Shown in pieces: positions 33,601-58,868 of a stretch of DNA of 64,000 nucleotides. The DNA is from Mesostigma viride (taxonomy: Eukaryota; Streptophyta; Mesostigmatophyceae; Mesostigmatales; Mesostigmataceae): positions 62,001 to 126,000 of the forward strand of contig RPFO01000338.1 of NCBI GenBank assembly GCA_009746045.1, in the 5' to 3' direction. Each line of letters starts with the position of its first letter. Within the stretch, counting starts at the first letter, position 1. The notes below the pieces were generated by a model that saw only the letters and a program-made list of their open reading frames with translations, made no database searches and was not told the DNA's origin. The translations under genes were made by a program, and so were the position numbers.

Positions 33601-33875
<275 letters not shown>

Positions 33876-37082: not shown

Positions 37083-37222
37083 CTGTCTGAGGCAACCCCT
37101 ACACACCTTAATTCACCCAAGGGGGAGGCCAGGTGCTCCAATGCAGATTTTATATCTGGGCAACAAGAGGGTGATCTCCAGGTTCAGGTGGCCCCAGGTC
37201 ACCTGGAGAGGTACAGGTTCCT

Positions 37223-40200
37223 ATGAAGACGTCCTTGACAGCTGGTGCAGCTGTAAGAATGTCTGACCCCATGCATCCTCGTGCTGGGCACGAGGGTGGA
37301 CCTCTCATTTTGAGAGAAACCAATGTACAACCACAGAGGGGTGTGAAGGCCTCTGGTGGTATGCATGTGGTCCCTGCTGGCGGTCCAGGTGTTGGGCATG
37401 AGCAGGGTGACTCAGGCTCTGAGTCAGAACAGGATGGAAGTCAGCATGGTGATGCTGGACAACCTGACAGCACAGTCCTGACTGTGCCAGGGACTGCTTC
37501 CTCTGTGTACCAGGAGTTGGGTGCCCGAATCCACAACATGTTTGGGCATGCCACTTCTCTGTCAAACAACTTTGCCTTCCGTATGGGCAGGGCACCCCTT
37601 CTTAAGGCGTGTCAGCAAGCTGCCTCACGGTGTAAGTGCCAGTTGTCCTCCAACAAGCCCAGGAAATCACATGCCAAAGCTCTACCTCAGAGCATTGGTG
37701 ATCTGCAGTGTGATATCCAACACATCAGGGGCATGCAACTGTTGGTGTGCGTGGACAGGTACACAAATACAAGGTGCTGGAGCATTTACCTTCTATGAAG
37801 AACAGGTACTTGCTGGCTGCCCTGCAGAATGTAAGAGCCAAGTTTCCTACCACAAGGATCCAGGTGGACATGCAGTTTCAGCATCTCAAGGGTGATCCAC
37901 CCTTCCTGAGTTGCTGGTTACACCTAGGGAGGCTCATGGGCAGCAGGGTGCTATAGAGAGGGCAATCCAGGAGGTCAAGAAATTGATCATCTCTGAAGAC
38001 TGGGTACCCTTGTCTGCACCTGCACTTGTCAGGAGTGCATGGCTGAGGAACGTGGAGCAGCAGCTGAACAGCAGGGTTAACTTCTACTATGATGGAGTTG
38101 CTGTCAGCCCAATGGGTCTATATCATGGCCTGTGCCCACCACATGTGCTGGAGGGCTGGAAACATGCTGCACATGTCACCTTTGCCAAGCTGAGGGAGAA
38201 GGACCGGGGTTGGAAGATGCTGGAGCCACAAGTGGGTCAGAAGGTCCTAGCTTGGAAGGAACCTAGCCTTTATGGCAAACGTGGTAGCTGGAGTCCTGGG
38301 GTGGTTACCCAGGTTGATGAAGCTAGCCACGCATGCTTGGTCAGCATGGAGGACGAACCAAAGCATGTGCACCGGCTGAGTTGGTCATATGTCAAGCCTA
38401 ACCTGATGAATGAGGGCAGTCAGGCACAAGGCTCACAGGATCTGCAGGATTTTCAGGTCCCAAGTGACATCACTGACGCAACGACCACATCTGTTGCAGG
38501 GGAATCTGTCAGCCCTGGCCAGGTTGCAGAGGTACTTGTTGAACAGGCTGCAAGGTCAACAGCTGGGGAGTCAACTGTCAAGCCCAAGGCTCTAACCAAG
38601 CCCAGGGGGACAAGTTTGGCTGGATTGATTGGGGCTCTACAAAGGGCCAAGAAGCAGCCCAAGGTAGCCAAGCTCAGGTGGCATGGCAATCTGGGGCTGG
38701 ACACTGCCTTAGAGGTAGACACTAATTCTCAGGTTTCCATCATTGGGACCAGAGCTGCAGCAGGGTACAGCATGACTGAACCCAGCTATCAGTTTGTGTC
38801 TGACTTCAGTGGCGGGGTACACGTGAAGGTACTGGGTGAGGTATCTATTCCTATCCTTGGACAGGACACTGCTTTTTGTGTCTTGGAGGGCTATCAGGAC
38901 CTGCTCTTCTGGGGCAGAATTTCCTATGCCAGGATGGGGTAGTGATCACGTCCTCTCTCCTGACTAAGGAAGGGGCTGGTCAGGTCCCACTGATTAATTT
39001 CAGGACCACTCACCTATCACGTGCAGTAACCAGGACGGTTAAGCGTGTGCAAGTGTGCCAGGGGCAGGAGCCCTTGGTTGATGACCTCATATTGCCAGCT
39101 GCTAGTCATCCAAGCAGTTTGGGCATTGGTCCTCACTCACTTGCTGGACACAGCCCTATCAACTACCAAGGCCTGGTGAAGCTCATGTCCTCTCCCATTA
39201 TGTGTCCCCAGGTCACACTGGGTCTGATTAAATCTGGGGAGGACTGGATCTCCAAGAAATGCGTGGAACCTGTCAATGACCTGCCTCCTGCACGACGTCT
39301 ACTCAAGCTCAAGTTTGTCATCAAGATGAAGGAGGTGGACGGGGTCAAGGTACCACATGTCAGGCCAGTGCTGAATGAGTTCAAGGGTACTGGTGAGTGC
39401 ACTGCTGAGGAGTTGTATACCCCTGGCATGCTGCATGACACTTGGAGGCTGCTGCTGTGTGTATTTCTAGGCCTTCTCAACAAGGGCTTGGACTATGGCT
39501 CAGTGGTGGTAGACTTCAAGAGGGCATTTCTGGAGGGGGATGCAGATGTGGCACAGGAAAAGTGGGAGGGCAAGACGCCTTTCTATGTCAGGGTGCCTGC
39601 TGTATGGAAAAGGGACATTCACACTGAGTTCCTTAAAATCCTCAAGGGCCTGGAGGGCCTGAGGTCAAGTCCAATAATCTGGAGGGAGACTCTCAACCGT
39701 TTCCTGAAGGAGCATTGCAACTTGAAGGTCTCTCCTGTAGACCCCTGTCTGTTTCTGGGGCAATGGGAAGGCCTACCAGTGTATGCTTCGCTGCACGGGG
39801 ATGACCTACATCTGATAGCTCCCACGTCGTGGCTTAAGGAGCTGATCTCCATCATTAAGTCCAAGTTTCCTCTGGGTAGGGAGCAATGGCAGGTGGAGAA
39901 TGAGCCTCTGCTGTTTGTGGGCATGGAGGCCACACTGGTGAAGAAGGGGGGGAGTGGCGTATGCTGCTGGTGGGGGGCAATGATTATCAAGAGACCCTCA
40001 TTAGCAAGCTTCCTCCAGTCATCACACAGGCACTGTGTCCCATGGTGAGGGGCATGGTTGCTTGGGTGGCAGGCATTTCCAGGCCAGACCTTATGGTCAT
40101 AGCCAGGTTGCCTGATGACATGCTGATGGAGCTAGGGTCTGCCAAGGTGGCTGATCAGGTCAGGGCTTCATCTGGCATTCTGTTGTCTGCAGTGGATTTA

Positions 40201-40704
40201 TCACAACCCATTTGCATGGAGCTGTATGTGGATAGCTCAATGGACAGCAGGCAGGTCTCCAAGGTCAGGGGCAGGGCTGCAGGGCTCTTTGTGCTCAGAC
40301 AGGAAGGCCTGGGGAGTTTGGTGAGCTGGTTTAGTCGCCTGCACAAACGGGTGGCTGTCAGCAGTGATGTGGCAGAATGCAGGGCTATTTGTGAAGGCAT
40401 TCACACAAGCCTTTATCTGAAGGAGTTGCTTCATCAGATGACTTCTAACACTCCTTGGCCACTTCAGGTTACCACTCTTCTAAAAACAGACTCCATGGGG
40501 ATGGTGCAGTTTGTGCACAGGCAGATGGCCAGAAGTAGGGACTTGGATTATCTCCTTCTTAAGGAATTGTCCTCCTTGGCCAATATTGAGCATATCCCTG
40601 GGGTTGACAATCCTGCTGATGCTTTGACCAAGCTAGTGCAGAAGGCAGCAGTGCAATACAAGGTTCTTCAGTCTCTGATGGACCCATCTCAGCAAGCTGT
40701 CTAA
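37223..40704 (+). pseudogene. El1 pol: integrase, retropepsin-like, RT, RNase H
   Basis: Order seen: a spacer; an HHCC-like finger (HNMFGH ... CQQAASRCKC, about 37530-37645); an integrase core (LQCDIQHIRGMQLL; the Asp equivalent in IQVDMQFQHL; then HGQQGAIERAIQEVKK with the Glu); an SH3-like tail (GKRGSWSPGVVTQV ... HRLSWSYV); a retropepsin-like domain (EVDTNSQVSIIG at about 38715, LLGQNFL at about 38910); RT with VVDFKRAFLEGD and HGDD at 39794-39805; and RNase H (VDSSMDSRQ, AECRAICEG, KTDSMGM, NPADALTK). At least four frame shifts (near 37780, 37910, 38925 and 39960) inactivate it. No protease motif is evident between the zinc knuckle and the integrase. Confidence 0.85.
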
Positions 40705-41654
40705 GCTGGTGCCTGGTTATAGGGCATTGGAGAGCAGATTGTGTGGTAGTGTCAGCATTGTGACTGGCATAATACCTGTATTTTAGTCTGTACTAAGGCT
40801 CATGGACCATGGTACACTCACTCTGATTTTAATCAGGATACAGCCAGGTTTTGGCTGGGGTTCATGCTGTTGACTACACAAGGTTGACAGGTCCATTACA
40901 GACCATGTATTCTATTTTAAAAGAAATGTATATTTGTACATACCTCTCACAATGGTCTGGGAACCTTTATTCTGGGGTTTATAGGGCGGGGTTCGATTCC
41001 CTGGTATTATGTTTCTACAAGCTGGCCTGTTCAGGTGTTTGCCTGTTCAGACTTCCCTAGTTCCCCAGGGCAGGATTTAATTGTTGCCTATGTGTTTCAT
41101 TTTGTCATTTGTTTGCTGTGGCAGTTTACCATCTGGCAAGTAGACGGGCGCCGTAAGACGGGCGCCAATAGACCCCTGTTGAGAGAATGACAGGCAAACT
41201 ATTGTAATACGCCTTACTTTGTCAAGTGGTATTTTAATTGTCATGGATTTATTGTACTTATATTGAATATGTACTGGGTTTTATGGGATTAGTATCTGGG
41301 ATTAATGTAACTCACCGCCAGAAGGTCATTGTACTGGAGGCTCTACCGAGGTGATGGGATTAATTCCTGGAGAAGACCTCATAGAATTAACCTGTATGTA
41401 TTTAATTTTGTGTGTTCTAATATCTGGTGGTACTCTGTAATGCCACTTCCATAGGTTTTTATCCATTTCTCATGGAAATGGTTTTCCCTGTGGCAGATCT
41501 GTTTCTTTTCCAGTTCCTTAAAAGAAAGGGCTGGGGGAATGGCATTGGCCATTAAAGACATCTGTTCAAGCTTCAAGCTGGAGTGAAGGACATTTCAAGC
41601 TACTTCAAGGGTCCCTGGCAGGGGATGTGATCCCTAAAGAAAAGAAGGGATTGG
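40705..41654 (+). other. El1 3' untranslated region and polypurine tract
   Basis: No ORF. It contains the tRNA-like box at 40,988-41,004 and ends in a purine tract aaagaaaagaagggattgg directly before the 3' LTR. Confidence 0.7.
40984..41004 (+). promoter_or_regulatory. tRNA T-arm-like box in the El1 3' UTR
   Basis: GGCGGGGTTCGATTCCCTGG can form a 5-bp stem (one G-T pair) with a TTCGATT loop, matching a tRNA T-arm and the Pol III B box GGTTCGANTCC. The same box occurs at the same place in El2 and El3. Confidence 0.6.
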
Positions 41655-42276
41655 AGTTAACGTAAAGGATTTACGTTAGATGGATAGAGATTGTTACGCT
41701 CTTTCCAACGGCACCTTGAACGCCTCATTTGGTTAAGGAACGTAAAAGTTATGACGTTTCCTAGGCTGTGCCGACAGTACCCGGCGCGCCACTGTGGGCG
41801 CGTACGGACACAGGATGTACAAGTGTCACTTTGATAGTCCGCAGGACGTTGACAGGACTTGTACAGGACTTGATGGTCAATTGATAGGTAGGCGCGCTGT
41901 AGCGCGCCAGGACCTATGAGACAATTGATGCTGACAGTGTACGGATAGGTCCACAGGACTAGCCGTATGGACAATTGATAGATCTGCGCGCCAAAGGCGT
42001 GCCAGAGTCTGTGTAATCAATTGATTGATAGTTCAGCTGTGACAGTGCAGCTGAATACTTGGACGCGTCCCTAGCAACCTATATGTGTGACTTGGTAGCA
42101 CCGGGACGCTAGCTCTTGCGTGCACGCTCTCTTGGCACCGCGACCTTGTCGTCTGTGCTAGTAACGTGCAGTCTTAATTGGACGTGACGTGACTTAGTCT
42201 GTGTTCGCTCATTATAATAAAGGCAACTTTCCTGCAAGAGCCATGGATTCCCTCGGGAGTAAACTCTCACTCAACT
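41655..42276 (+). repeat. El1 3' LTR, 622 bp
   Basis: From AGTTAACG to CTCAACT, followed by the GCACG duplication. It contains the 245-bp segment once. TATA-like cattataataaagg at about 42,209-42,223. Confidence 0.9.
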
Positions 42277-42281
42277 GCACG

Positions 42282-42714
42282 GGCCGCAAAGCCCGCAAAA
42301 ATGGCGGCGTTGGGGGCACCCTTGTCCAGCTCGTCGACGTCCGCCCGGGCCGGCCCAGGGCCGCCAGGTACTCCCGTCGGCACCGGTTCCGCTCCGACGT
42401 GTTCGGCGTCCGTCCAGTCCTCAGGATCTCCCTTGACCGGACGTAGAGCAGACCAGTCAGGGCGGACCACAGGGGCGCGGCGCGCGGGGACGTCAGTGGA
42501 ACCGGAGCCGAAGGGTCGCGCGCACCAGCCGGTGGTCAGAGCACACCGTGGGCGTGTCAAACACTCGGGCGTCCAGAACCGAGGTGCACCTGGGCTGCCG
42601 TACCACCACGTAGTCCAAACAGGCCTGACGGCCGTTAGGGCCACGAAAAGTGACCAAGTCCTGTGAGGGACGTTGGAAGTGACAGTTGACAGCAACCATC
42701 CCGCTATCCCGCAA
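42282..42714 (-). pseudogene. LINE-C endonuclease C-terminus
   Basis: The minus frame reads LVTFRGPNGRQACLDYVVVR and ends VCSDHRLVRATLRLRF, the last strands and the S-D-H catalytic motif of an APE endonuclease. It continues as a low-complexity linker to 42282, where El1 inserted. This is the upstream partner of 14,682-14,932. Confidence 0.75.
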
Positions 42715-42732
42715 AAAGGCAGAAAACAGCTA

Positions 42733-42810
42733 GGGAGTGTACTGGCGGGGCGGGGACCTCTATGTCAACAAGAAACTGTGGAAGCCCCCCCGGGCTTCCC
42801 CGGCCGGATA
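42733..42810 (+). pseudogene. Inverted fragment of LINE ORF1 C-terminus
   Basis: The plus frame YWRGGDLYVNKKLWKPPRAS to a TAG matches YWRGGDLMINHKMWTPP of the ORF1 at 13.6 kb. It points away from the neighbouring endonuclease fragment, so an inversion or a separate insertion lies at about 42,720. The next 390 bases have no gene. Confidence 0.65.
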
Positions 42811-43199
42811 GAGCACTCCAGCTAGTTGTCTAGATGGGGGCAATCGATTATGGGATAGCTTAGGCATTACAGCACTTGAAACGATATACAGCGTTATAGT
42901 ACCTTCAATTAGCTCTGGCACCTTGTGGCCATCAGCTTGCGCCTTAATTAGCCGACGTCTTGAGCCCACCTCACATTTGTAGCATAAGCTATGCGTCAGC
43001 CTACCTATGGTATTGCACTGGTTGTATTGCACCCACAGTGTTGCGCCCCGGCACCATGCCGTGGAGAGAGCGCTCTGTGGCCTGCCCACCTGCGGCAGTG
43101 AGAGAAGCTAGGGCGCCCTCCCTCCTTCTCGCTGCATGTGTATATAGGGTTGAAGGTTCCTTTACTCTGTATTGGCACCCACGTGACGCAGTCACGTGC

Positions 43200-43301
<102 letters not shown>

Positions 43302-43955
43302 GGGGAGTGTTGTCGTTAGCTTCCGTGTCAGCAGCTAGGCGCAAAGCGACTGCCAGCAGTGCCCACGGGGAGCGAGGCATTGGCGTCGAGCAGCATAACC
43401 AAAAAGTGGCGGGCCGGAGTGACCCCCTCAAGGCTATGCAAAGACTCGAAGAACTCCTGGCGTTCCGACGCAGGTATAGACCACTATGGCGTGCATAGCC
43501 CACCCCCACCGTGTCAGAGATGGTGCTTAGCCCCGCCCCTCGACGGAGGTGAAATGTGCTACCATAAGGCGTGGTGTTAGAAACTTAAGCGTGCTGAGGC
43601 TAGCAACTGCCAACAGCGAACACAAAAGACCAACACCACCTTGGCCTGGCGTCCCACTTCCAGCGAAGTAGAAACGCCAACCGCCTGCAAGGCGGTTAGT
43701 GCTCACCGTGCCAAATGGCACCTGCATGGCGACGGTGCTCCTGCACGCCTAGAATGGATACACGATGTGCAATGCAAAATGCGACGAGCTCCTCTACCCG
43801 GCAGCTAATAATGGTCGTCATCTGCTAGCAATTTGCGTGTGTTGAAAGTGGCAAGGGCCAAGGATGCCTGCTGGCCCACCAGGGGAGAACGGCGATGGAT
43901 GATGGGGGTGGATGCGGCGGGGGGTGGAGGTGGGGGTGAAACGGAGGGGGGAAGG
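43302..43955 (-). pseudogene. LINE-D endonuclease, decayed
   Basis: The minus strand shows LALATFNTRKLL (about 43,850), the usual start of an endonuclease domain, and FLVMLLDANASLPVG (about 43,370-43,410), equivalent to the GDFN active-site strand. Several frame changes lie between. The fragment ends at the (TTA)n array. Upstream parts lie beyond El2 at 50,890. Confidence 0.6.
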
Positions 43956-44583
43956 AGTTAATATTGCCTGGCAAGCAATATTATTCTACTAAGCTACTTG
44001 GCTTGTAGAGATTCTACTTCCGGTTACTACAATCCAGAAACGGGTTCATTCTGATGAGTATTGCTCGAGATGTGAGCAAGATACTGTTCTACTACATTCT
44101 ACTTGGATTCGGTGATTCTACGGTGGTTCTTCAAGTGACGCGTGGCATACGGCGTCTTGTCACAGTGTACGATAGGACATTTAGTCTCCGACACTGCGGT
44201 CTATTCAATGCTATTGATTAGACGTAACAAATAGTGACAGGACTTGTGCGACAGGACACTGATGTGACTATTTATGGATAACGAGTCGAGATCTGCTGGT
44301 CCAGAGTGAAGGACAGCAATATTGTGAGATGATCTGTCCTATCAGTCATCTGGATGTGACTGTGTCACAATTAGTATATAACGAGCAGGACGCTGCCACT
44401 TGGTAGCACCACTTTCCCTGCACCTGTGTCCTCGCACCTTCGGCGACGGTTCTCACGTGCCTCGTGCATTCTGTGCTGGTAGCCATAACCAGCAACGTAA
44501 ACCTATTGATTAACATAACTACTTCCTCTGTAGATATTAATCAGTGCAGGCTGAACCACAGTTCAGCCACAGCTTCTTTAACT
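43956..44583 (+). repeat. El2 5' LTR
   Basis: 628 bp. A TATA-like ttagtatataacgagc lies at about 44,372-44,387. The base after the LTR begins CGAATTACAAGCGAG, sharing CG(A/T)ATTACAA with El1. Confidence 0.9.
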
Positions 44584-46057
44584 CGAATTACAAGCGAGTT
44601 CGTAATCTACTGATTACGGCATTGATTTCTGGTGTCGTCAAAATTTACGGTGTTGTTCCATTATAATATGGGAACCACGCGTGAATTTCGTGAACCATCT
44701 CTGGAGGCGCGGTGGATCCTTCGTCAAGCCTCGATTTCAACGTCAGCGGAGCAGTTGTCGAATTTCTTATCTCGAAGGTCGTCGGCAAGCATCTACGTAC
44801 GAATCGGCCTGCAGCAGGATGCGCCATATATGAACGTTAAGTTGCGCGTGCAGTGGATTTCAGTTTTATGATCTGAATTTTACGGGAATGTTGTAGCGGA
44901 CTTTTGTATTCCGTTACTGGCCTGTTTTATGTGCACGGACTTCGCAATAAAAGCTTTGGATTTTATTGTTTCAAGGCCGGGATTTTGTGCTGCGAAACTG
45001 GGTTTTGGTTTCGTGAAAATATGTTGTAGTAATTACGTCGTATGCTATACGAAAAACGTAGTTACGAATATGGAGTCGGTGGGGCCTGGTCCGGATTTGT
45101 TGTGTCGCGCTTCTGCGAATGTAATACGAAGTTTGTTTCGTGCCAGAATTGCGCAGTTAGTTCAATATTTTATGTTGGCTGCTGCATGTGCGCAGTTGCG
45201 ATGGAAGCATTGATACGAAAAATTATATATAATTTCGTATGCAGCGGAATTAAGTGTTGTCACTACGACAACATTGGCACTGCTAGCAGGGCATGTCGGA
45301 TATTTGTCATATATATGTCGATGATGATTATACCAAAGTTTATGCTGTATAAATTCTCTTGTGCAGAACAAGCTCATGCTAATTAATGCATTGGCATTAT
45401 TAATGCTGCATGTTAATGACTTGTTTGCAAGGTCAATTTTGAAGGCGAAAGCGTGGCCGGGTCGGCAGCGAAGTCGCAGCAAGCGAACTGAATCGCTGAA
45501 GACAAATGAAGCGCTGATTGCGAGCGGCTGCGAGTGCTGAAGTGATCGGGCAACTGCGAAAGTCGCCAGCGATCTGGAAAGAGCACGAGTATCGCTGTCA
45601 AGAGCGGGAGAGAGCACAAATGTCGCAAGCGGCTGTCAGAATTTGTCGCCATCGACAATGAAGGTCTTCAAGGCAGCTGCTGAGCGTGTTGGGAGCGAAG
45701 GCACCAGTGAGCAGTCGCCCCGGGCGCGAGTGTCGCGAACGACTGAATGCTATAAGCAACAACAAGAGGAGTTACGGTTGATACCTTTGTTGCATGAAGT
45801 GCAGCCTGGCGTGAAGGCGCACTTGCAAGCAAGGTTGTGATTTATTTGATAATCACTTCAACAGGGTAGGTGCCCAGTGGGGAGCACCTGGATCTGCGGT
45901 CGACGCAGGGTAACATGTTATTTCTGCCATGCAAACAGGGTCATATTGCCCTCTTTGGCATTGGCAAGTGAACCGAGGTGGGTATATTAATTTAACCCAA
46001 CCTGACGGATTCTGCCTTCCCTGGGCTTGCTAGGGTCCGCCAGGGAGGGGGCTAAGA
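44584..46057 (+). other. El2 leader, gag not recognised
   Basis: 1.5 kb with short frames only (44632-44871, 45643-45840). No zinc knuckle is visible. A stem-loop similar to other retroposon ends (gtgcccagtggggagcacc) occurs at about 45,870. Confidence 0.5.
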
Positions 46058-46360
46058 GTGACCCCCCCATTACTCTGGATGAAGTTAATTTGCTCCCTGC
46101 ACTGTCAGGTTGAGGGTACATCCATGGAGGAAGAACACAATGGGGTAGTGACTGGGTCTTCCCACGTCACCATGGTGAAAGCAGTTACCACAAGGCAACA
46201 ACGTTCCCACAAGGCTCTTGGAGGTAGTTTGCGTACTCCTTCAATGTTGGAGGGTGGAAGTCCTGCCTTAGGGCAGGAAGCTCCTTTAGAGGAGGAGGAT
46301 GAGGCTGATGGCCTGAATGATGCAATGGGGAGCAAGTTATTATATATTTATAATAACTGA
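46058..46360 (+). pseudogene. El2 spacer region before integrase
   Basis: 100 residues, Glu/Thr/Ser-rich (VTTRQQRSHKALGG). It resembles the region upstream of the integrase finger in El3 (VVTRQRARHGG), so it is the end of gag or the start of pol. The HxxxxH half of the finger that should follow is missing, so a deletion lies near 46,360-46,405. Confidence 0.5.
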
Positions 46361-46404
46361 GCATGGTTGTAAGTGATAGTGCTGATCAAAGCACATCACC
46401 TAAG

Positions 46405-49400
46405 CAGTAAAGCAGGTTGCTGAGGCTTGTTCCTGTAGGCTGGTTGCTCTCAAGCCTAAGAAGTCTCATGTCAGACAACCTGTGTTGCAGCCTGGATATG
46501 TGCAATGTGATATCCAAGAAATCAGGAAACTGATTTTGTTGGTTGGTGTTGACAGATACACCAAGTACAAGGTGCTGGAGCTGTTGCAAGACAAATCTAA
46601 GCCATGTTTGGTGGCTGGGCTCCAGGCTATCAGATCCAGAATGAAACCAGTGATCCAGCTGCAGTGTGATTTAGAATTTGAGTGCTGCATGGGGCATGAA
46701 GACCTCCCTGAGTTATTTGTTGTACACAGGGAGTCCCATGGCAGTCAAGGCGTGGTGGAGAGGACAATCAGAGAGATCAAGACTATTTTGCTGACGGAGA
46801 AGAAGATTCCAAGATTGGTTCCAGCTATTATCAAGACGGCCTGGTTAAGGTCAGTTGAGGACAGATTGAATGTCAGGGCATCCATGTATGTTGGAGAGGT
46901 CCCTGTGACTCCATTATCATTGCATCTTCGGGAGCTCCCTACTGAGGTTGAGCAAGCCTGGAAAGATAGCCTTATGTTCAAGTTTGCCAAGTTGAGGCAG
47001 AAAGACAAGGGCTGGAGTGTTCTGAAACCTGTTGTTGGCCAGAGGGTAATTGTGTGGAAAGAGCCCAAGCTTGCAGGCAAGCGTGGTAGCTGGCACCCTG
47101 GAGTAGTGACCAGGGTGGAACTAGCTGGGCACAAGTGCTGGGTGAAGATGGAGGATCCTCCCCAGAATGTGCACCGTCTGTCGTGGTCATATGTACGTCT
47201 AAGGGGTGCTGAAGCAGAGGCAGTAACTCCTGATGTGACAACCTTGCCAGTTGGTCATGACGTCATCCCTGATCATCACGTTCCGGCTGGAAGTAATCCC
47301 CGGGTAAGTCCTGGCCAGACCCCTGGACCGGTTAACTTTCCAGATTTAGAGCAGGCAGATGTGGTCCCCTCTAGCCTCACTAAGCATAGAGGTGTGGGCC
47401 TGAAAGATGTGGTGCTGGCTATGCAAAAAGCCAAGCAAAAGCCTCGGGTGTCCAAGCTCAGCCAGTTGGGGGAGTCCGAGTGCACTGCACTAGAAGTAGA
47501 TACCAATGCAGAGGTCTCAATCATGGGGTCTCAGCATACAGGGCAGCGGCAGATTGGCGAGTCTAGCTGTTCCTGGGTGTCTGACTTTAGTGGCAGGGTT
47601 CATATGAAAGTGGTAGGAGAAATCATCTTGCCATTTATGGGTGTAGATGTTTCCTTCCTAGTGCTAGAAGATTACGATGGCCCTATCATTTTGGGTCAGA
47701 ATTTTCTTTGCACCCCTGGAGTTGTGGTTGTATCTCATAGCCTTATTCGTAAGGGTTGGGGTAGCATTCCACTGACTAACTTCAGGGCCCTGAATCTTAA
47801 TTTTTTCTCTGTGAAAGCGATCAGGAATGTGCAGTGGCCTGAGGATCAGATTCCTGTGGCTTCCAGTCTTGTGATGCCAGCTGCTCTCATCCTAGCAGTA
47901 TTGGTATTACTAAGAGATCACTGGCTGCTCATTCTCCTCTTAGCTATGATCAGCTTGTCCAGGAAATGAGTTCTCCTCTGATGTTTGAGGCCTGGAGGCT
48001 AGCATTTGCCAAGGCCCTAGAGGAGTGGTTGCAGTTTGACTGCTGTCAGCCTGTGAATGAAGTTCCTCCATACAGTACACGGTTGAAGCTCAGATTCGTC
48101 ATCAAGCGGAAGGAGGTGGAGGGGGTGTCTGTTCCCCATGTGCGTCCAGTTCTTAATGAATACCGTGGTACTGGGGATCTTCTGGGCGAGGAGTTGTATA
48201 CACCTGGGATGCTACATGATACATGGCGTATTTTATTGTGCCTGTATGTCGGTATGCTGAACCAGGGTGCTGATATGTCTTCAGTTCTGCTAGATTTCAA
48301 GAGAGCATTTCTGAAGGGTGATCCCAGTGTGGCTCAGCAGGTGTGGCATTGTGAAACTCCATTTCATGTGCCAGTTCCTGTAGCCTGGCAGGCAGAGCTC
48401 CAGTCTAGCTACCTGCTGATTCTGAAGGGTCTAGAAGGTCTCAGGTCCAGTCCCATCATTTGGAGGCTCACCTTGGAAGACTTCTTGACTAAGCACTGTG
48501 GGTTGAAGGTGTCATCTGTGGACCCATGTTTATTGCTGGGTAGGTGGCATGATTTACCTGTGTATGCTAGCCTGCATGGTGATGACTTGCACTTGATTGC
48601 TCCCACTAAGTGGTTGAGTCAGTTTGTGCCCATCATTAATGATGCATTTCCTTTGGGAAAAGAATTGTGGCAGAAGCCTGGAGAGGCTGTCACGTTCTGT
48701 GGAATGCAGGCTACATTGGTTCAGGAGGGGAGTCAGTGGCTGATTAAGCTGCAGGCGGGCAATGACTACAAGAGTACCATTCTTCAATCTGTTCCAGAGG
48801 TCATGACGTCATCCATTGCACCTGAGCTGAAAGGCAAGTTGGCCTGGTATGGCAGCATTTGTGGGCCTGACATGATGGTCCATAGCAGATCCCCTGATGA
48901 TGTGCTAATTCTGGAGGAGCCTTCCCAGATTATTGCACATGTTAACAAGTCTCCTGGTATTACTTTAGCTGGGATTGATTTGTCTTTGCCATTTTCCTTG
49001 GATATCTATGTTGATAGCTCCATGGATAGCAGGCAAGTTTCTAAGGTCAGAGGCAGGTCAGCTGGCTTGTTTGTGCTTCAGCAACATAGGCCTAGTCTTG
49101 TGGCCTGGTACAGTCGTCTTCAAAGAAGGGTTGCTGTGAGTTCAGATGTCTCTGAGTGCAGAGCCATTTGTGAAGGGATTCAGTCTAGTTTGTACATCAA
49201 GGAGCTGTTGCTAGCTATGGCTTCAGTGACTCCTCATACTCTTCAGCTGGAAACCTTGATCCTTTCAGATAACATGGGTATGGTCCAGTTTGTGCACAAG
49301 CAGTTGGCCAGAAGCAGAGATCTGGATTATCTCCTGTTGAAGGAGTTGGCAGGTCTGGTGGATATTCAACATCTTCCAGGTTCTGAGAATCCTGCTGATG

Positions 49401-49483
49401 CCTTGACCAAGTTGCCTCACAAGTCTGCTGAGCAATATAAGCTAGCTTCTTTACAAACTGATGAGCTCCTCTGTGTGAGTTGA
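46405..49483 (+). pseudogene. El2 pol, one frameshift
   Basis: Open from about 46405 with the CSC half of the finger; integrase core with QCDIQEIRKLILLVGVD, LQCDLEFECC and HGSQGVVERTIREIK (second Asp to Glu spacing 29 residues); SH3-like GKRGSWHPGVVTRV ... HRLSWSYV; retropepsin-like domain with EVDTNAEVSIMG (DTN codons 47499-47507) and IILGQNFL; RT with LLDFKRAFLKGD and YASLHGDDLHLIAP (HGDD 48575-48586); RNase H with VDSSMDSRQ, SECRAICEG, SDNMGMVQ and NPADALTK; stop at 49483. A single missing base near 47,890, compared with El3, breaks the frame between the protease-like domain and RT. Confidence 0.9.
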
Positions 49484-50261
49484 GCAATTCCAGTTGGAGC
49501 TTTGAGCTTGGTGACTGGTTGGGTGAGAAGAGCTAACATTGAGCTGGGCTCTGTTATGCTGAGAGCTGTGATGCTCTGAGGGCAGTAATGCTCTGTGTAC
49601 ATATGTGTATAATACTGTATTCTATGTAATGCTCATGCAGTCATGGAGCATGATGTTGGTTGGGGGTTTGTCCTCAGTTTGAGGTTTGTCTCAACCAAAG
49701 GGATTTTATAGGGCAGGGTTCGATTCCCTGGGGCTGCTTAGGCGGATTTTCCCGGATTGGCTGACCCATCAACCTTGCTGGTGAGGTGGCGACAGGTCCC
49801 CCTAGTTTTGTCCCAGACAGAGGAAGGTAGTTTGTCATGTGCTTAATATATTTTGTGATGTGCTATTTCTCAGTCCATGATGGTGGGCGCCAGTTCTGAT
49901 AACTATCAATGTCTACCTGATAAGGTCTTGTGGGTAACTTGTGGGGTTCCAATCAGGAGCCATTATGGTGGTGATTCCATTTTAATCATTATTCTGGTTA
50001 GCCACAAGCTGCTACTCCAAACACTTGGCTTTCTACTTCCAGTGGATAGGGAATTCATTGTAATTCGTCATGGCTGAGATGTGTTGTGATCTGGTGCTTG
50101 ATTAATCCCGAGCAGAGACTACAGAGAGCTGGGAGGGATGTCAAGTGCTATGCATGTTGTTTCTATATATGTGTTGCCAAGCCTAACAGCTCTAAAAGAA
50201 AGAAAGGGCTGGAGTTAATATGGCTGTTATGTCCAAGCTCTAAAAGAGAAGAAAGGGCTGG
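49484..50261 (+). other. El2 3' untranslated region
   Basis: No gene. It holds the tRNA-like box (49,714-49,731), then about 85 bases conserved with El3 (GGCTGACCCATC ... GGTGAGGTGGCGACAGGTCC), and ends in a purine tract aagagaagaaagggctgg before the LTR. Confidence 0.75.
49711..49731 (+). promoter_or_regulatory. tRNA T-arm-like box in the El2 3' UTR
   Basis: GGGCAGGGTTCGATTCCCTG, the same box as in El1 and El3, preceded in El1 and El2 by TTTATAGGGC. Confidence 0.6.
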
Positions 50262-50889
50262 AGTTAATATTGCCTGGCAAGCAATATTATTCTACTAAGC
50301 TACTTGGCTTGTAGAGATTCTACTTCCGGTTACTACAATCCAGAAACGGGTTCATTCTGATGAGTATTGCTCGAGATGTGAGCAAGATACTGTTCTACTA
50401 CATTCTACTTGGATTCGGTGATTCTACGGTGGTTCTTCAAGTGACGCGTGGCATACGGCGTCTTGTCACAGTGTACGATAGGACATTTAGTCTCCGACAC
50501 TGCGGTCTATTCAATGCTATTGATTAGACGTAACAAATAGTGACAGGACTTGTGCGACAGGACACTGATGTGACTATTTATGGATAACGAGTCGAGATCT
50601 GCTGGTCCAGAGTGAAGGACAGCAATATTGTGAGATGATCTGTCCTATCAGTCATCTGGATGTGACTGTGTCACAATTAGTATATAACGAGCAGGACGCT
50701 GCCACTTGGTAGCACCACTTTCCCTGCACCTGTGTCCTCGCACCTTCGGCGACCGTTCTCACGTGCCTCGTGCATTCTGTGCTGGTAGCCATAACCAGCA
50801 ACGTAAACCTATTGATTAATATAACTACTTCCTCTGTAGATATTAATCAGTGCAGGCTGAACCACAGTTCAGCCACAGCTTCTTTAACT
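50262..50889 (+). repeat. El2 3' LTR
   Basis: 628 bp, nearly identical to the 5' copy; visible differences are at the gacggttc/gaccgttc and attaacat/attaatat positions. Confidence 0.95.
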
Positions 50890-52402
50890 GAAGGGAAGCG
50901 GTGGAAATAGTGCTTTTCATCGCATTGATTTTGTCCTTCAAGCGTAGGATGCGAGCCTGCCGCTTGCTCGGGGTATTCGGGGTTGGGGCTGATTGCACAA
51001 CGCCGAGGCGTATAGGTACAAACGTGTAATCTAGCAAACGTTGGGTTTTACGAATCTGACAGTTGACAGATGAGGTTGTAGCCCGAAATACCGGCACCAC
51101 CATGGCTTTCACCCGACGGTTAGGTCGAGGCATGGTCTAGTGGAACGGGACTCAGTTTAGAGGCTGTCCCCGAAGCCTGTTAGCCGCGAGCCGACGAGGA
51201 AGGTTGTCTACCTACGGACACCACCGGAGGCAGCACAGTGTCCTGCTAGACACCTCACGAGACTCCGCTCCGGGGGTGTTAATCTGAACACCTTTAAGCT
51301 GTTTCCCATCAAAGAATGCTGCGAAGGAGCCATCCTGAAGCAGACGCAGCTTAATGCGCTTACCCGGGGTCTCGAACTGCTTGGTCTCCTGGATGAGGGT
51401 GCTGTTCCACACGTACGCGCTCCTCGCCTTCAGTTGAGCCGGCGTGTAGTCCTCGTCGATCGAGGCTGAAGTCACCGCGCTGGAGCAGACGACGTGCTCC
51501 CAGCACGAGGCGTTTGTCGTGCATGGAGGCCATGGTGACGACGACCAGGCCCAGAGGGCCTGGCAGCCGAATGGCACGTTCAATGGCAACACGGTTCTGG
51601 AGCTGCAGCTTCCCCAGAAACGCTGGGCCGCGCAGCTCCTCGGCAAGGGAGTGTGCTGTCTCATGTGCTGTCGCGCCTTTCGGAAAGCTTTTGATTACCA
51701 TATTGTGTTGGCGTTGCTGCACTGCATTCTGGGTCACCGCAGCGGTAGCTGCAGACTTGGCCGCCTGTTGAACGATGGTAGTCAACTGCTTGCCGGTGAC
51801 ATCGGCAAACGTGGTAGTTTTGGCAGGGGCTGCCATGGCTTTCTTCATCTCCAGCATCGTCTCCTTCATGCAGGACCTTAATGTCGTCCTGCACGGTCGT
51901 AAAAGACTGTGCGAGGTCCTGCAGCGGCACGGTAATATCGGTCGCGGGGGCTGGCCTGGCGATGGACGTCGCCGGCAGCTCGACAAGTTCAGGGCAGCAC
52001 GAAAAAAGACAGGCAAGCCGACGCTGACGCGTATCGATCCCAACCAGACCACTCATCCGAAGGAGCGTCCATAACCTGGCCGGTGTAAGGTTGGCGAATC
52101 GGGGCGTTGTTGTTGTCGATCGCGGAGCTTCAGCACGCTGGTTACGGCGGCGTCGTTGTAGTCGAGTAAGAAGGTAGCGATGTTTGCCAGGCTCAGACGC
52201 TGGCCTGGCATGTAGAATGATGAGGCCGAATGGAGTCCGGCAAGGAGGTTTCAGTATCTATCGGAGTTGCTTCCGAAGTCTTGGGCCGCTTGTGAGCGGC
52301 GTTCTCGGCGGCGACATTGCTGTCGTTGGCGATTTTGTTTGCAGCAAGCTGGGCATCAATAGACTCGGCGACAGGAGCTGAAGACGATGCGGGGGCCTCC
52401 AT
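50890..52402 (-). pseudogene. LINE-D ORF1 and start of ORF2
   Basis: ATG at 52402 on the minus strand (MEAPASSSAPVAESIDAQLA). Several frames then give a coiled-coil stretch (FTTVQDDIKVL, MLEMKKAMAAP), an RRM-like part (HNMVIKSFPKGATAHETAHS), and a C-terminal domain (DEDYTPAQLKARSAYVW ... FFDGKQLKGVQINTP) ending near 51,270. 51,133-50,895 is a second short frame toward ORF2, which El2 interrupts. ORF1 proteins coat LINE RNA. Four or more frame changes inactivate it. Confidence 0.7.
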
Positions 52403-52639
52403 ATGACCATATCTACGTTTTAATATCCATATCTACGGTTAATAGCACCTAGGCGATGGCAGGGGGCGCAGGCACACGGCTCACGTGCGTGGTGCCGCCA
52501 TAACGTGCAGAAAAATAGCGATATCTGCTGGGCAGGCCGCTGGCGATAACTTGCCTGTCATGGGGGGTTCATGCCATGTATACATCGTGGATTGGCCGCC
52601 AACATGCCAGGGCAGCTGTTGGGGCAAGGCGCCAGCCTG

Positions 52640-52810
52640 GCACTGATCTCCTAATTAATTAATTAATGAAAATTAATTAATTATGTGTGAGCATACCTCC
52701 GTGGGGAGGCTATATGTAACACATGTGTATATCCCTGAGAAGGGGTATATGGTTTTTAATTAATACATTCTGAGCGATCGACAACCTGCAGGTGTTGGGT
52801 TATAACGGCC
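52640..52810 (-). repeat. Retroposon 3' end with (TTAA)n tail
   Basis: Minus-strand unit ending in CCTCCCCACGGAGG and (TTAA)n, with CATATACCCCTTCTCAGGGA upstream. It is homologous to the units at 9.6 kb and 28.2 kb. Confidence 0.65.
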
Positions 52811-52879
52811 ACCTACTCTGAGTGCTTGTACAAGGCGCACCTGCACCATGCCACGTATTCAGCAGCTAGATTAACGTCA

Positions 52880-53427
52880 TCGCTCAAGTGAGTGAACTTC
52901 GACATTGCGGAAGGTCCACGAGAATTCCGAGAAGCTTGCACATGCGTTTGAGAGCAAAATCCTTGGTCGCATGGGCCTTCTTGGTGAGATCAAGCTGGTC
53001 ACCCACCGCCTCCCCGGGGGAAGGCAGGGGCGCCCCCGCTTCTTCTCATCTTGAAGAGCCCATAGGACAAGATTTCGTTTCTCAGACGCCGCAAGCGGCT
53101 CGAGAAGACTCCCTTCACCTTGGACGACGACTTGACCCTGGCGCAGCAACAACGGCGACGGGAGCTAGATGGCCGACCTACCTCCACTATAGCTCCGGCA
53201 GACCACAGCGGGGTCCAAGCCGGTGTACTGGATTAAGGGGGCGACCATCTACGTCGGCCACAAGCCCTGCATGGCAAGCGACCCCCGCGGCCCCCGCACC
53301 TCCCTAGACGCCCCAGCTTAGGGGAATACAGCAGTAGTAGTGTAGAATAGTCAGGCCTAGCCGTGGCCCTCGGTTCTGGACACCCGAGTGTTCAACACGC
53401 CCACGGTGTGCTCTGACCACCGGTTGG
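52880..53427 (+). pseudogene. LINE ORF1 fragment followed by endonuclease end
   Basis: The plus strand reads FTLDDDLTLAQQQRRREL (about 53,115-53,170) and VYWIKGATIYVGHKPCM (about 53,225-53,275), the C-terminal domain of a LINE ORF1. At 53,370-53,425 it reads DTRVFNTPTVCSDHRL, an endonuclease end nearly identical to that at 42.6 kb. The intervening endonuclease is deleted. El3 is inserted directly after. Confidence 0.7.
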
Positions 53428-54130
53428 AGTTAACGTTTCTAAAACGCAATGTATAAGGATATGGTTGCAATGCAGCAATGTGTGAATGTGGTTGGAACGG
53501 AGCTTTGTTAAAATTGGATAATGTTACAGCGCTCACACACTTGAGGCTTGTACGCGAGTTTGCCAAGTCAAGGCAACACACGTGAGGCGGGCTTGCAAGA
53601 GAACTGCCCAATTGGCACTGGCCTATTCTTTATATACTTGTGCACTGCGCTTTGCTAGTCCTGAGCAGCCTAGGAGGCCTGCTCAGTAATAACACTCCCG
53701 GTACAGTATTCACTACCTGCATGTACAGCGCCCAGTTCCTATATACAGTAGGTCGGTCATACAGGTACAGTGACCACAGAGCACAGTCCACAGTGACTAT
53801 TGCCTCTGCACCTAGAAATCCAGGACTAAGCCTGCGGTACCAACAGACCACAGGTTAAGGTTCCTATTTCCTGCGTACGACGTATTAATCCAATACCGTC
53901 GTAGGTTCAGCACCTAATTCCTGTCAGCCCAGGAATTACTGTCGACCCCATATGTCGTCGGCAAATATTCACGTCCGACTTAGAAGAACAGCCGGCTCAC
54001 GCTCGCGCGCGACCGGGCAGTCGGAACGCCATAACTTTCTTGATACTTGTCGGAATGAACTCGTTCCGGTGCCGCTGGAATCGCAGAGATATGCCGAATC
54101 AGGAACACGCCAATGCGCTTGGCGTTAACT
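53428..54130 (-). repeat. El3 3' LTR, 703 bp
   Basis: Its ends are perfect 8-bp inverted repeats AGTTAACG ... CGTTAACT. A purine tract (aagaaaagaaaggattgg, minus) precedes it. The outer 5 bases GTTGG should be the target duplication, but the partner lies outside the window. Confidence 0.85.
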
Positions 54131-54872
54131 CCAATCCTTTCTTTTCTTGAGCTGTAGCAGCTCACACAAGTCTACATACAAACACACACAATGGGTACTG
54201 GACATCCTCCCCGACTACAAGTCACAACCCGCTGGGCATGACAGTCAGCTTGGATTCCTTATTATATGTACATAGCACCCATACTGGTTCAGGAGCACAA
54301 ACAAATGACAATGAGTTCCTATCCCTTCCCGGGAGGCTCGCTGTGTTACCCATGTACAAGAGGTTGGCCAACTGTGGCAGCCCATAGGTGTTCAGTGAAG
54401 AACTTGAGAAGTATGTACAACCTTCAGGACCTTAGGCGAAACCCCACAGTCATCACCCACAACAGCTCATCAGAAAACATTGCTGACCCCCAGACGGGAG
54501 TCGGCGCCGGTCTGCTGCCCCTTATCGAACCAGACACCACATCTAGGCGAAGCACATGCAAAACACAAGCTCCTATACTCATTCCAACCGTGGAAAATCA
54601 GGGGACCTGTCGCCACCTCACCAGCATGGTGGATGGGTCAGCCAGTCCGTGAAACTCCGCCTTAAGACGGCACCAGGGAATCGAACCCCGCCCACAAACC
54701 ACAGATCTGGGGAAACCTCAGACTGAGATGAAAACCCCAGATAGACATCTCTCCATCAGAGACAATGTCAGACATTCCCACACCAGAGACATGTCTCACC
54801 CCTCAAGATGTGCTCAGGATTATGTACAATCAAGCTCTCAGCCTGATATCCAGAGACTTTAGCACCCAGCTC
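54131..54872 (-). other. El3 3' untranslated region with tRNA-like box
   Basis: The box GGCGGGGTTCGATTCCCTGG is at 54,673-54,692 (minus), followed by the block conserved with El2 (GGCTGACCCATC, GGTGAGGTGGCGACAGGTCC). No gene. Confidence 0.7.
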
Positions 54873-57800
54873 TCAGCTTTTAGTAGACAGATATAGACCG
54901 ACTTGACAGTCAGCATTCATGAGCTTCCTCAGTACCTTGTACTGGGCTGGGGCCTTATGCAGCAGCTTGGTCAATGCATCAGCAGGGTTCTCCTCGCCAG
55001 GGATATGCTTCAAGTCAACCAAACTGGCCAACTCCTTCAGCAACAAGTAATCCAGGTCCCGGCTTCTGGCCAGCTGCTTGTGAACAAACTGGACCATACC
55101 CATGCTGTCTGTTAGCAACAACGTCTCCATCTGCAAGGTCCAAGGGGTAACTGACGCCAGCTCCAGCATTAACTCCTTTATGTACATGCAAGCTGGACTG
55201 GATCCCCTCGCATATGGCCCTGCATTCTGCCACATCTGAACTGATACAGACCCTCTTCTGCAGTCTGCTGTACCAGCTGAACAAACTTGCCCTGCTCTGA
55301 TAAAAAGCAAACAGAGCAGCAGATCTCCCCCTAGGACCTAAGTTGGTAACCTGGCGAGCATCCATGGAACTGTCAACAAAGATCTCCAAGGTGATAGGCT
55401 GGGCAAAGTCAATCCCAGACAAAATCAGATCAGGGGTACTCTCCACCAATCAATCGGGCTATGACTCGAGGCTTCTCATCCTCAAGCACATCATCAGGCA
55501 TTCTGCTATGGACCATCAAAGACGGACCACAGATGCTGGCAAACCAGGCCCACATGCCTCTCAACTCAGGTCCTGCAGCCTGGGTGATCTTCTCTGGCAA
55601 GGCCTTCACAATGGTCTGTTTATAATCTCCTCCAGCCTGAAGCCTGATACTCCACTCCCCATCCCTCCTGAACAGGGTAGCCTGCATTCCACAACAGAAC
55701 ACTACAGGCTTGTTGGGCTCCTGCCACAGCTCCTTGCCCAGTGAAAACTTGCCACTGATGACAGGAATAAACTTCTTCAGCCAGGTCGTGGGGGCTAGCA
55801 AATGCAGATCATCTCCATGCAAACTAGCATACACTGGCAGACCCTCCCATTGGGCCAGCTAGCAGCAAACAGGGATCAACTGAAGACACTCTCAAGCCAC
55901 ACTCACTGATCAGAGCTTCCTGCAGCGTGAGTCTCCAGATGATTGGGCTCGACCTGAGTCCTTCCACTGAGGCCCTTCAGAATAACCAGGAAATGTTGAT
56001 GCAGCTCCAGCTTCCAGATAGCAGGCACCTCAACACAGTAAGGCTCATCCTGCTTCCATACCCTCCTGGCCACTTCTGGATCAGATTTTAAAAATGCCCT
56101 CTTGAAGTCCAGCAGCACTGATGACATAGCTGCTCCCCTGTTCAGCAACCCCACGTAGAGACATAGCAAAATTCTCCATGTGTCGTGTAACATCCCTGGA
56201 GTGTACAGCTCCTCTCCTGGCAGACTCCCCGTGCCGTGATACTCATTCAAGACAGGCCTGACATGGGGCACTGATACCTCATCCACAACCTTCCTCTTCA
56301 GCACAAATCTCAAAGCAAGCTTCCTTGATGCTGGGGGACGCCTGTCTGTTGGTGCAGCACACTCAAACTGCAACCACTCCTCCAATGCCTTGGAGAAGGC
56401 GAGCTTCCAAGCCTCAAACAAAGTAGGCGAGCTCATCTCTTGGACTAGCTGGTCATATGTCAAAGGAGAGTGTGCAGCAAGGCTCCTGTGAGTTATGCCA
56501 ATACTGCTGGGGTGCAACACAGCTGGAATCACCAAACTGGCTGCTGGGGGCACCTCCCCTTCATCCCATTTTACACCCTTGACCGGCTTGGCCCTGCAGC
56601 TGATTGGAAATGTTGTCCTGAAATTTTCTAGGGGATTCATCCCCCAGCCATCTCTTCTCAGAGCTGTAGCTCTGATAGAAATCCCAGGATTGCCCAGAAA
56701 ATTCTGACCCAAAATCACAGGGCCATCATAGTCCTCTAGGACAAGGAAGGTCACATCCACACCCATGACAGGGGATGCAGTAACCTCTCCCAACACCCTT
56801 AGATGCGTCCTACCACTGAAATCAGACACCCAGGGGCAACTTGGTTCTCCGACCAGCAGTTCTCCTGTATGCTGAGGTCCCATGACAGAAACCTGTGCAT
56901 TGGTATCTATTTCCATGGCAGCTACCTCAGGATCATCCAACTGGACAAGCTTGGACACCTTAGACTCCTTTTTGGCTCTTTGCAAAGCCTGTACAATATC
57001 TGATAGACGCACACCCCTAGGCCTGGTGTCGGGCCGTTCCGGAGGTGCAGCCTGTCCGCCTGCTTGCCCAACCACTTTATGTGAAGGTACCCCAGGGGCC
57101 GGGCCAGGGTCACCCTGAGGGCTCGATACAGCTGTAGCACCCTGATCAGGAAGTTCCACGTCACCCCCGCCTTGTACACCAACGGGCACCTGGAAGAGGC
57201 CTCCTTGATTACCTCCCCTTACACGGGGACGGATCTTTGACCAGGACAGACGGTGCACTGCTTGGGAGCCATCAATGGCCACCCAGCACTTATGGCCAGC
57301 GGCTTCTACTCGGGTCACCACCCCATCATGCCAGCTGCCACGTTTCCCTGGAAAGCTTGGCTCCTTCCACACAACAACCTGTTGTCCAACGTTAGGTTCT
57401 ATAGGACACTCCAGCCCTTGTCTTTCTGCCTCAGCTTGAGGAACTTGGCCTCTAGCTTCTCCTTCCATGCCTGCTCAGCATCAGCTGGCAGCATCCTGGT
57501 GTGCAGCATAAGAGGATTGATGGCAATGTCACCAAAGAACACTGAAGTCCTGAGGTTCAGCCTATCCTCCACAGAACGTAGCCATGCAGATGTCACAATG
57601 GCAGATGACGTCCTTGGAATCCTCTCCACCAGCAGCACAGTCTTGATCTCTTGGATGGCTCTCTCCACAACCCCTTTCTGGCCGTGGCTCTCCCTGGGTG
57701 TAATCAGCAACTCTGGAAATTCTGGCAGGTTCTCACAGCACTCAAACTGAATGTCACACTGCAGCAACTCCAACCCAGCTAGGGTACCTGCTCCTTGTCA

Positions 57801-57963
57801 ACTTCAGAGCAGCAATTAAGGTAGGCTTCTCCAAGTCAGGCAGGATCTCTAGGGTCTTGTACTTGGTATATCTGTCCACTGCCACCAGCAGCTTCAAACC
57901 CCTGATTCTCTGAATATCTACCTGCACATGGCCTGGCTGCAAAATAGGAGACCTGGCATGAGA
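54873..57963 (-). pseudogene. El3 pol: integrase core to RNase H
   Basis: On the minus strand from the LTR-4 junction: VQVDIQRIRGLKLLVAVD, LQCDIQFECC and HGQKGVVERAIQEIK (integrase); GKRGSWHDGVVTRV ... HRLSWSKI; EIDTNAQVSVMG (DTN at 56,899-56,907) and VILGQNFL; RT with LLDFKRAFLKSD and YASLHGDDLHLLAP (HGDD at 55,808-55,819); RNase H with VDSSMDARQ, AECRAICEG, TDSMGMVQ and NPADALTK. Frame changes occur near 57,770, 57,400, 55,860, 55,450 and 55,250. All catalytic residues other than the altered DTN and HGDD are retained. Confidence 0.85.
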
Positions 57964-57968
57964 CTGCT

Positions 57969-58785
57969 TGTTAGGGATATAATATCCACCTGGCCACAAT
58001 GTATCCCAGCCTGATTTATTTCTTGTTGGATTTATTCCATATGGATTGGGAATTCGATAGCGTTGATAAGCTAGATGGATTGGGCTCAATGAGCTGATCA
58101 ATATTCATGTGCCATAGTCCTATACTTGGACATGGATGACTTGTAACCTGAGTCAGCCTAGTAGCATCACGTATTGGATTGACAAGTGGTGCTATGGCCT
58201 AGTGGACAAGTGTTTGGTCCATGAGCTGACAAGTGTTGAAAGCTCATGATGACACATGTTATGACTTACATGATGACAAGTGGGTAGACTCATTGCATGA
58301 CACTTGTCACTCCAAGGAGAAGAGATGTGTCACTTTATTAATCATGTTATGTGGCACACTATTATGTAGACACTTGGCATCTAGCTATTATGCCAGCTCA
58401 TTGGATCATGTCTAGAATGTTCTAGGAATGTTCTAAGAATATGCCAGGAATATTCCTGGAATATACTGAGAATATGCTGGGAATATGCTAGGAATATGCT
58501 AGGATGTTTCTACAAGCTTCTGTGATGATGTCATTGCTGATGTCATCCTTCCTAGCCTAAAAGGTATAAAAGGAAACTGCCCCCTAAGGGCAGGTACCTC
58601 CATTTCACCTCCATCAACCTCCATTCAAGCTCTTCTCCAACTATTATATTCTAATAAAGCCATTTATTCTTCCACGTAAATTGTCTTCAACCTCTCTTTC
58701 TTTCAGCACCTGCAAGGTGTGTGGGTAGCAAGGCCAAGCACAAGGCATTGTGTAAAACCCATTAGTTCCTCTCCCAATCCAAACA
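57969..58785 (+). repeat. LTR-4 5' LTR
   Basis: 817 bp, TG...CA. TATA box ggtataaaagg at about 58,562-58,572 and polyadenylation-type ctaataaagcc near 58,650. Confidence 0.95.
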
Positions 58786-58797
58786 TGGTATCGGAGG
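58786..58797 (+). other. LTR-4 primer binding site
   Basis: TGGTATCGGAGG directly after the LTR closely matches TGGTATCAGAGC, the site complementary to the initiator-Met tRNA used by copia elements. It contrasts with El1 and El2, which have no such site. Confidence 0.8.
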
Positions 58798-58868
58798 TTT
58801 GTTACTGAGGAACAAGAAGACCACTGTGAACCCAGAGACATCCAGTTCCATTGGCGACTGAAGACACC

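Follow-up and report, generated by a model that had tools for sequence, protein, structure and literature searches.

A retropepsin-like domain downstream of integrase in three long terminal repeat retrotransposon families of Mesostigma viride

We analysed 64,000 nt of Mesostigma viride DNA (contig RPFO01000338.1 of GCA_009746045.1, positions 62,001–126,000, forward strand; hereafter the window), which holds El1, El2 and El3, members of three high-copy long terminal repeat (LTR) retrotransposon families. These families share the order gag, UGA, linker, integrase, SH3/Agenet-like tail, spacer, retropepsin-like domain, reverse transcriptase (RT) and RNase H, confirming an arrangement with a protease-like domain between integrase and RT. 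An earlier note on this DNA had read integrase, SH3-like tail, retropepsin-like domain, RT and RNase H in that succession, which was borne out with the motifs where it had placed them. Searches of the genome (440 Mb, 2,243 contigs) returned at least 88 scored matches to the El2 protein, at least 82 to that of El3 and at least 116 to that of El1, a few of them fragments of one copy. The copies inspected were L039–L043 (El2), L044 (El3), and L046 and L047 (El1). A protein search returned a sole homologue outside this genome, P0001, with 1,214 amino acids (aa), 62% identity, the same order and the triad DTN. The features of the three elements and of a nested element are as follows (window positions; TSD, target-site duplication).

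36909..36950, + strand: El1 gag zinc knuckle (CCHC), frame 36684-37082; PF00098 E=8.1e-4, 19.8 bits (cut-off 20.8)
37080..37082, + strand: El1 UGA (UGA CUG) between gag and pol frame
37083..37528, + strand: El1 gag–integrase linker with one DSG in an acidic run; no protease domain recognised
37529..38100, + strand: El1 integrase finger and core, frame-broken, end approximate; by motifs, and rve E=0.038 in the relative L047
37529 (finger), 37706 (D) and 37929 (E), + strand: El1 integrase motifs
38232..38393, + strand: El1 SH3/Agenet-like tail; by motif and likeness to El2 and El3
38685..39010, + strand: El1 retropepsin-like domain, limits approximate; by profile and motifs
38712-38726 (EVDTN; DTN 38718-38726), 38796-38813 (VSDFSG, flap position) and 38909-38926 (LGQNFL), + strand: El1 domain motifs
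39275..39868, + strand: El1 RT, copia type; RVT_2 E=8.4e-7, 29.3 bits (cut-off 31.6); LHGDDLH at 39791
40228..40632, + strand: El1 RNase H, copia type; by motif and profile of relatives
43956..44583, + strand: El2 5' LTR, 5'-AGTTAA..TTAACT-3', TSD GAAGG directly before
44726..45993, + strand: El2 segment replacing gag in a subfamily
46404..47030, + strand: El2 integrase core, without the HH half of the finger; D 46500, E 46731
47034..47195, + strand: El2 SH3/Agenet-like tail; Agenet E=0.0039, below cut-off
47481..47807, + strand: El2 retropepsin-like domain, the exchanged block, type a; limits transferred from L039
47493-47507 (EVDTN; DTN 47499-47507) and 47691-47708 (LGQNFL), + strand: El2 domain motifs
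48086..48499, + strand: El2 RT, copia type, Pfam-matched part; RVT_2 E=0.012, below cut-off, and copia RT profile match
48572, + strand: El2 RT motif LHGDDLH
49010..49411, + strand: El2 RNase H; by motif and profile
50262..50889, + strand: El2 3' LTR, TSD GAAGG directly after
54966..55377, − strand: El3 RNase H; by motif
55802..56514, − strand: El3 RT region, limits by motif; LHGDDLH at 55822
56600..56940, − strand: El3 retropepsin-like domain, limits approximate; by profile and motifs
56913-56899 (EIDTN; DTN 56899-56907), 56812-56829 (flap position) and 56695-56712 (LGQNFL), − strand: El3 domain motifs
57232..57390, − strand: El3 SH3/Agenet-like tail; Agenet E=0.024, below cut-off
57399..57968, − strand: El3 integrase core, interrupted by the nested element; rve E=0.16, motif D 57927
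57969..62471, no strand given: nested standard copia-type element in the El3 integrase; TG..CA LTRs 98.5% identical, TSD CTGCT
62586..62606, − strand: El3 integrase finger, beyond the nested element; by motif
63024..63026, − strand: El3 stop codon separating gag from linker/pol; the relative L044 has UGA here
63132..63176, − strand: El3 gag knuckle region; unbroken in L044 (PF00098 E=1.3e-4)

The window copies depart in places from the earlier description. El2 lacks the gag knuckle ascribed to it, with only a broken CYFC.. knuckle trace in 44,726-45,993, and its integrase has the core but not the HH half of the finger. El1 carries the motifs of the retropepsin-like domain but not in a single frame, which shifts between the flap-position motif and LGQNFL. 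El3, placed within 37223-57963, lies there in part; the rest continues beyond 57963 toward 64000, its integrase split by the nested element. Elsewhere in the genome the same order stands in single open pol frames of ~1,190–1,200 aa, and frames of at least 1,190 aa, counted by eye, made up 29 of the 88 El2 rows, 50 of 82 for El3 and 1 of 116 for El1. The earlier argument that this is not one rearranged copy stands, the order being common to three diverged families and P0001.

The retropepsin-like domain is likely a remote relative of the clan-AA retropepsins, as judged from profile alignment. A five-sequence profile of the domain aligned with a profile of four Ddi1 domains at a score of 25.6 (P 9.6e-4) over 73 columns, which begin at DTN and end shortly after LGQNFL; this score was reached by none of 100 column shuffles in each of two runs (maxima 19.6 and 18.1). 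The reversed comparison gave 10.0, and none of eight other pol segments scored above 15.3. Against Ddi1 combined with two gypsy proteases the profile scored 32.2 (P 6.7e-5; 0 of 100 shuffles, maximum 22.1), and the positive control, Ddi1 against gypsy, 34.9. PF13975 weakly matched the same span of P0001 (residues 557-628, E=0.086), one of four pol proteins scanned. The distance from Asp to the loop Gly was 65 residues in all five sequences and 70–71 in the four Ddi1 domains, and two motifs, LGQNFL (the hydrophobic-hydrophobic-Gly loop) and VSDFSG (a putative flap, from its position), were identical in all five. Ratios of nonsynonymous to synonymous substitution (dN/dS) were 0.17–0.30 for the domain block in five of six pairs with finite dS and 0.04–0.28 for integrase in five pairs, figures that are rough because dS between families is near saturation, a point that also counts against the case; by these ratios the domain is under purifying selection.

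Comparison of El2 copies revealed that the domain has moved as a unit. L039 and L042 differed at 77 of 7,128 aligned positions outside one block (98.9% identical, LTRs included) and at 101 of 327 positions (30.9%) inside it (4080-4406 of L039), and between L039 and L040 the block had a dS of 1.44 and a dN of 0.24, with dS at 0.00–0.10 in seven other regions measured. The block comprises 109 codons, starting six codons before the catalytic Asp and ending ~33 residues past LGQNFL; because its limits bracket DTN to past LGQNFL, it independently outlines the domain. Thirty El2 loci divided into 19 of type a and 11 of type b, and the 500-base flanks on each side were 98–100% identical in 29 of them (L028 is degenerate). 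A second variable module consists of gag or of a different ~1.27-kb segment, as in the window El2, and the combinations over the 30 loci were gag/a (12), gag/b (7), other/a (5) and other/b (4), with two unassigned. All four combinations are therefore present, indicating recombination between modules, and the block has been exchanged between El2 subfamilies by recombination. Where the earlier note suggested capture or swap, the evidence reaches the swap of a block between El2 subfamilies, not the first origin of the domain. A DNA search that scored the best 40 of 713 candidates, all nearly identical, did not find a type-b donor, and four further places outside the 30 loci were all in El2, one of them disrupted.

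The ~1.27-kb segment (44726-45993; also in L040) replaces gag in a propagating El2 subfamily and joins pol beside the gag–pol UGA. The open reading frames (ORFs) listed in it are all short (113–157 aa).

We searched for the triad with a pattern that left its three residues free and fixed some neighbours, obtaining 42 matches from 40 records, several of which cover overlapping stretches of the same copies. All 42 read D-T-N and none D-[ST]-G, and LGQNFL was out of the DTN frame in three (L045, L046 and the window El1). The Asp and Thr codons differ synonymously between families (GAT ACC versus GAC ACT). A clan-AA study gives DT/SG and ILG as the two hallmark motifs (PMC2642776). Because the triad reads D-T-N, protease activity remains putative, and the Asn in place of the triad Gly is a point against it. 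The Asn in all 42 matches would also suit a domain that has the retropepsin fold but no catalysis and serves in dimerisation or in keeping integrase and RT joined; polyprotein processing would then fall, in trans, to a protease of another element or of the host, or would be dispensable. The gypsy-type proteases abundant in the genome (at least 150 scored matches, all above cut-off) might supply such an activity. However, Asp and Thr are invariant in all five sequences together with VSDFSG and LGQNFL, a pure scaffold need not keep a catalytic Asp and, in our judgement, block exchange is somewhat easier to reconcile with an enzyme than with a scaffold; we therefore consider a dead fold unlikely, while giving it more weight than any of the alternatives that follow.

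Several comparisons weigh against a retropepsin identity. Neither the gypsy protease by itself (12.96, reached by 23 of 100 shuffles; a reference of two near-identical sequences) nor the protease of the nested copia element (14.4, reached by 10 of 100; a single reference sequence with low power) gave a signal with the domain profile, and in a comparison by hhalign with nine single-sequence reference domains from copia and gypsy elements of the same genome its best match was gypsy RT (17.3), with gypsy protease outside the top four. No Pfam protease family was found in any of four domain segments, whose best Pfam match was DUF6898 around DTN in two of the four (E=0.0034, below cut-off). The domain-segment profile found no solved structure at E<=10, in a search of little power because a query with a genuine gypsy protease of this genome by itself retrieved one unrelated chain only. 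Protein searches, one of them over the best 8,000 candidates, found no relatives beyond P0001; a scan of viral contigs found none, and gypsy relatives that could have enlarged the reference profile were likewise sought and not found. The lack of a Pfam protease or PDB match by profile, the DUF6898 match and the missing signal against either protease alone would suit some other domain with DTN and ILG motifs by chance. Against this stand an ordered alignment over 73–78 columns that no shuffle in 100 reached and that eight other pol segments fell far below, the independent if weak PF13975 match over the same span of P0001 and an Asp-to-Gly spacing near that of Ddi1, which make such a coincidence improbable. 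Known proteases missed each other too in the profile comparison (Ddi1 and copia, gypsy and copia). The earlier description of the domain as gypsy-like rather than copia-like is upheld in part: the domain profile could be aligned to Ddi1, with or without the gypsy sequences added, whereas the nested copia protease gave no signal and neither did the genome's gypsy protease by itself.

We looked for a canonical protease between gag and integrase and found none. The weakly constrained linker of ~140 aa would give one room, it contains a single in-frame DSG in window El1 and in L046, and El1 has an out-of-frame 'VLDSWCS' string (37,2xx). Neither candidate was retained: the DSG lies within acidic GDSGSESEQD and reads DSD at that position in L047, and the DSW string is out of frame in L047. 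D[ST]G was absent from 21 forward ORFs of at least 100 aa in stretches of L039, L042, L044 and L047 (the last holds no gag) and from P0001, so none of their linkers carries it. In profile comparison the linker reached 6.9 with Ddi1 and no more than 13.1 with any of the nine single domains, and its dN/dS, likewise a rough figure, was 0.44–0.91 in six copy pairs. On these grounds it is very improbable that a protease was overlooked there and that the downstream domain is a second copy. In the same genome, the standard copia pol L004 had rve, SH3 and RVT_2 with no protease between them in Pfam, and the gypsy element L051 read in the usual order, protease–RT–RNase H–integrase. A rearrangement or assembly artefact of a few copies, which some frame-broken copies might suggest, has a negligible chance against 286 scored rows (some of them fragments of one copy), three families near synonymous saturation and P0001 from another record.

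At the gag–pol junction, L044 has a 351-aa gag frame with a CCHC knuckle that ends at UGA and is followed in the same frame by a 1,196-aa pol, and the window El1 and L042 have the same layout from the knuckle onward. UGA was followed by C at all five junctions examined (window El1, L039, L040, L042 and L044). UGA-C is a leaky stop context in plant viruses, and by this analogy readthrough of the gag–pol UGA is likely. Less easily accommodated are L039, with its knuckle in another frame than pol, and L046, with a second stop after the UGA; the gag frames of L039 and L042 are broken, at different places. A conserved RNA structure downstream of the UGA was rejected, with none significant there (z-scores 0.56, 1.30 and -0.73). 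Between the 5' LTR and gag, L039 (680-1279) and L042 (reverse complement 1644-2243) both have a 200-aa ORF, which in L039 is without a Pfam match at E<=0.01.

El2 has the paired LTRs and TSD of an LTR retrotransposon with ends other than the usual TG..CA. In all three copies compared (window El2, L039 and L042) the LTRs start AGTTAA and end TTAACT (AG..CT), with 5-bp TSDs (GAAGG, CCTGG and CCTGA). LTR pairs were 99.5–99.8% identical in these copies and in L041, indicating recent insertion, and 96.3% identical in L040; no LTR pair was seen in the L043 stretch. Positions 44584-44620, after the El2 5' LTR, are without the TGG that starts the usual tRNA primer site and look self-complementary by eye (ATTAC..GTAAT).

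RT and RNase H matched the genome's copia elements (E=3.6e-5 and 4.1e-8, respectively), neither with a gypsy signal, and RT scored 39.4 against copia RT and 18.5 against gypsy RT, so it is not of gypsy type. RVT_2 matched three of four pol proteins at E<=0.063, all below cut-off, and not L044. The integrase core leaned weakly to gypsy (score 20.8, E=0.017, 16 columns), copia integrase was outside its top four among the nine single domains, and the SH3-like tail matched neither a copia nor a gypsy domain. The best solved structures for the integrase profile were retroviral integrases (E=0.085 and weaker), and rve was matched by two of four members (best E=0.0053). A chimera of copia-type RT–RNase H with a gypsy-leaning integrase is a hint only, because the references are single sequences.

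These elements appear as a novel LTR-retrotransposon variant, with a copia-type RT and an order unlike copia. They resemble Ty1/copia (Pseudoviridae) in RT, RNase H and an integrase upstream of RT, but none of the three has the copia order, given as GAG-PROT-INT-RT-RH in PMC6317226: the protease-like domain follows integrase and gave no signal against the one copia protease compared, and El2 ends in AG..CT. They resemble Ty3/gypsy in the fit of the domain to the Ddi1-plus-gypsy profile and in the weak leaning of the integrase core, but not in RT and RNase H. The earlier list of known orders gave the standard ones but left out Gmr1 gypsy elements, which likewise have integrase upstream of RT (PMC8220671). 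The likeness to Ddi1 extends over the profile alignment from triad to Gly loop, whereas D-T-N here replaces D-[ST]-G and the domain sits within a retroelement polyprotein. Gmr1 presumably keeps its protease before integrase. Troyka is another LTR lineage with ends other than TG..CA but is reported to have CG..CG ends, 3-bp TSDs and a position as sister to the gypsy/retrovirus group, and is not the lineage here (PMC12440569). The open-access titles, abstracts and passages surveyed contained no description of a protease after integrase.

Elsewhere in the window, an RT-bearing frame at 10063-11163 (RVT_1 E=7.3e-9) is probably a non-LTR element, and 28706-29335 and 33500-34000 are long simple repeats, one reading (SIHP)n and the other (RE)n / (SL)n. 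A proline-rich ORF at 7131-8918 is reminiscent of green algal cell-wall proteins but is without a Pfam match.

We favour, with fair confidence from sequence comparison, the explanation that El1, El2 and El3 are LTR retrotransposons that have been active recently, carry RT and RNase H of copia type and have the order gag–UGA–integrase–SH3–retropepsin–RT–RNase H, in which the retropepsin-like domain is a modular, putative processing protease. Gag would be made alone, and a fraction of ribosomes would read through the UGA to produce Gag-Pol. The domain, the only candidate seen for processing this polyprotein, would dimerise and work within the particle, like other retropepsins, retaining the putative catalytic Asp, the Thr, the flap-position motif and the hydrophobic-hydrophobic-Gly loop, with Asn for Gly. 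It forms an independent module, swapped as a block between otherwise near-identical subfamilies, for which template switching between co-packaged RNAs may be the simplest mode. More tentatively, the elements may form a deep, undescribed chimeric lineage in which a copia-type RT–RNase H is combined with a retropepsin of Ddi1/gypsy type and an integrase that leans to gypsy, arranged as gag–integrase–protease–RT–RNase H, with UGA readthrough and a working D-T-N protease traded as a cassette.

Pol domain order is a classification criterion for LTR retroelements. A large plant survey assigned 5,410 copia and 8,453 gypsy polyproteins to the two standard orders and excluded all elements of unexpected order as likely mispredictions (PMC6317226), so elements such as El1–El3 could be discarded by such a filter. 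The placement of the protease bears on the timing of polyprotein processing, and D-T-N makes it possible to ask sharply whether a natural aspartic protease can have another residue in place of the triad Gly. The recombinational exchange of a single block the size of a domain provides direct evidence that pol evolves in modules.

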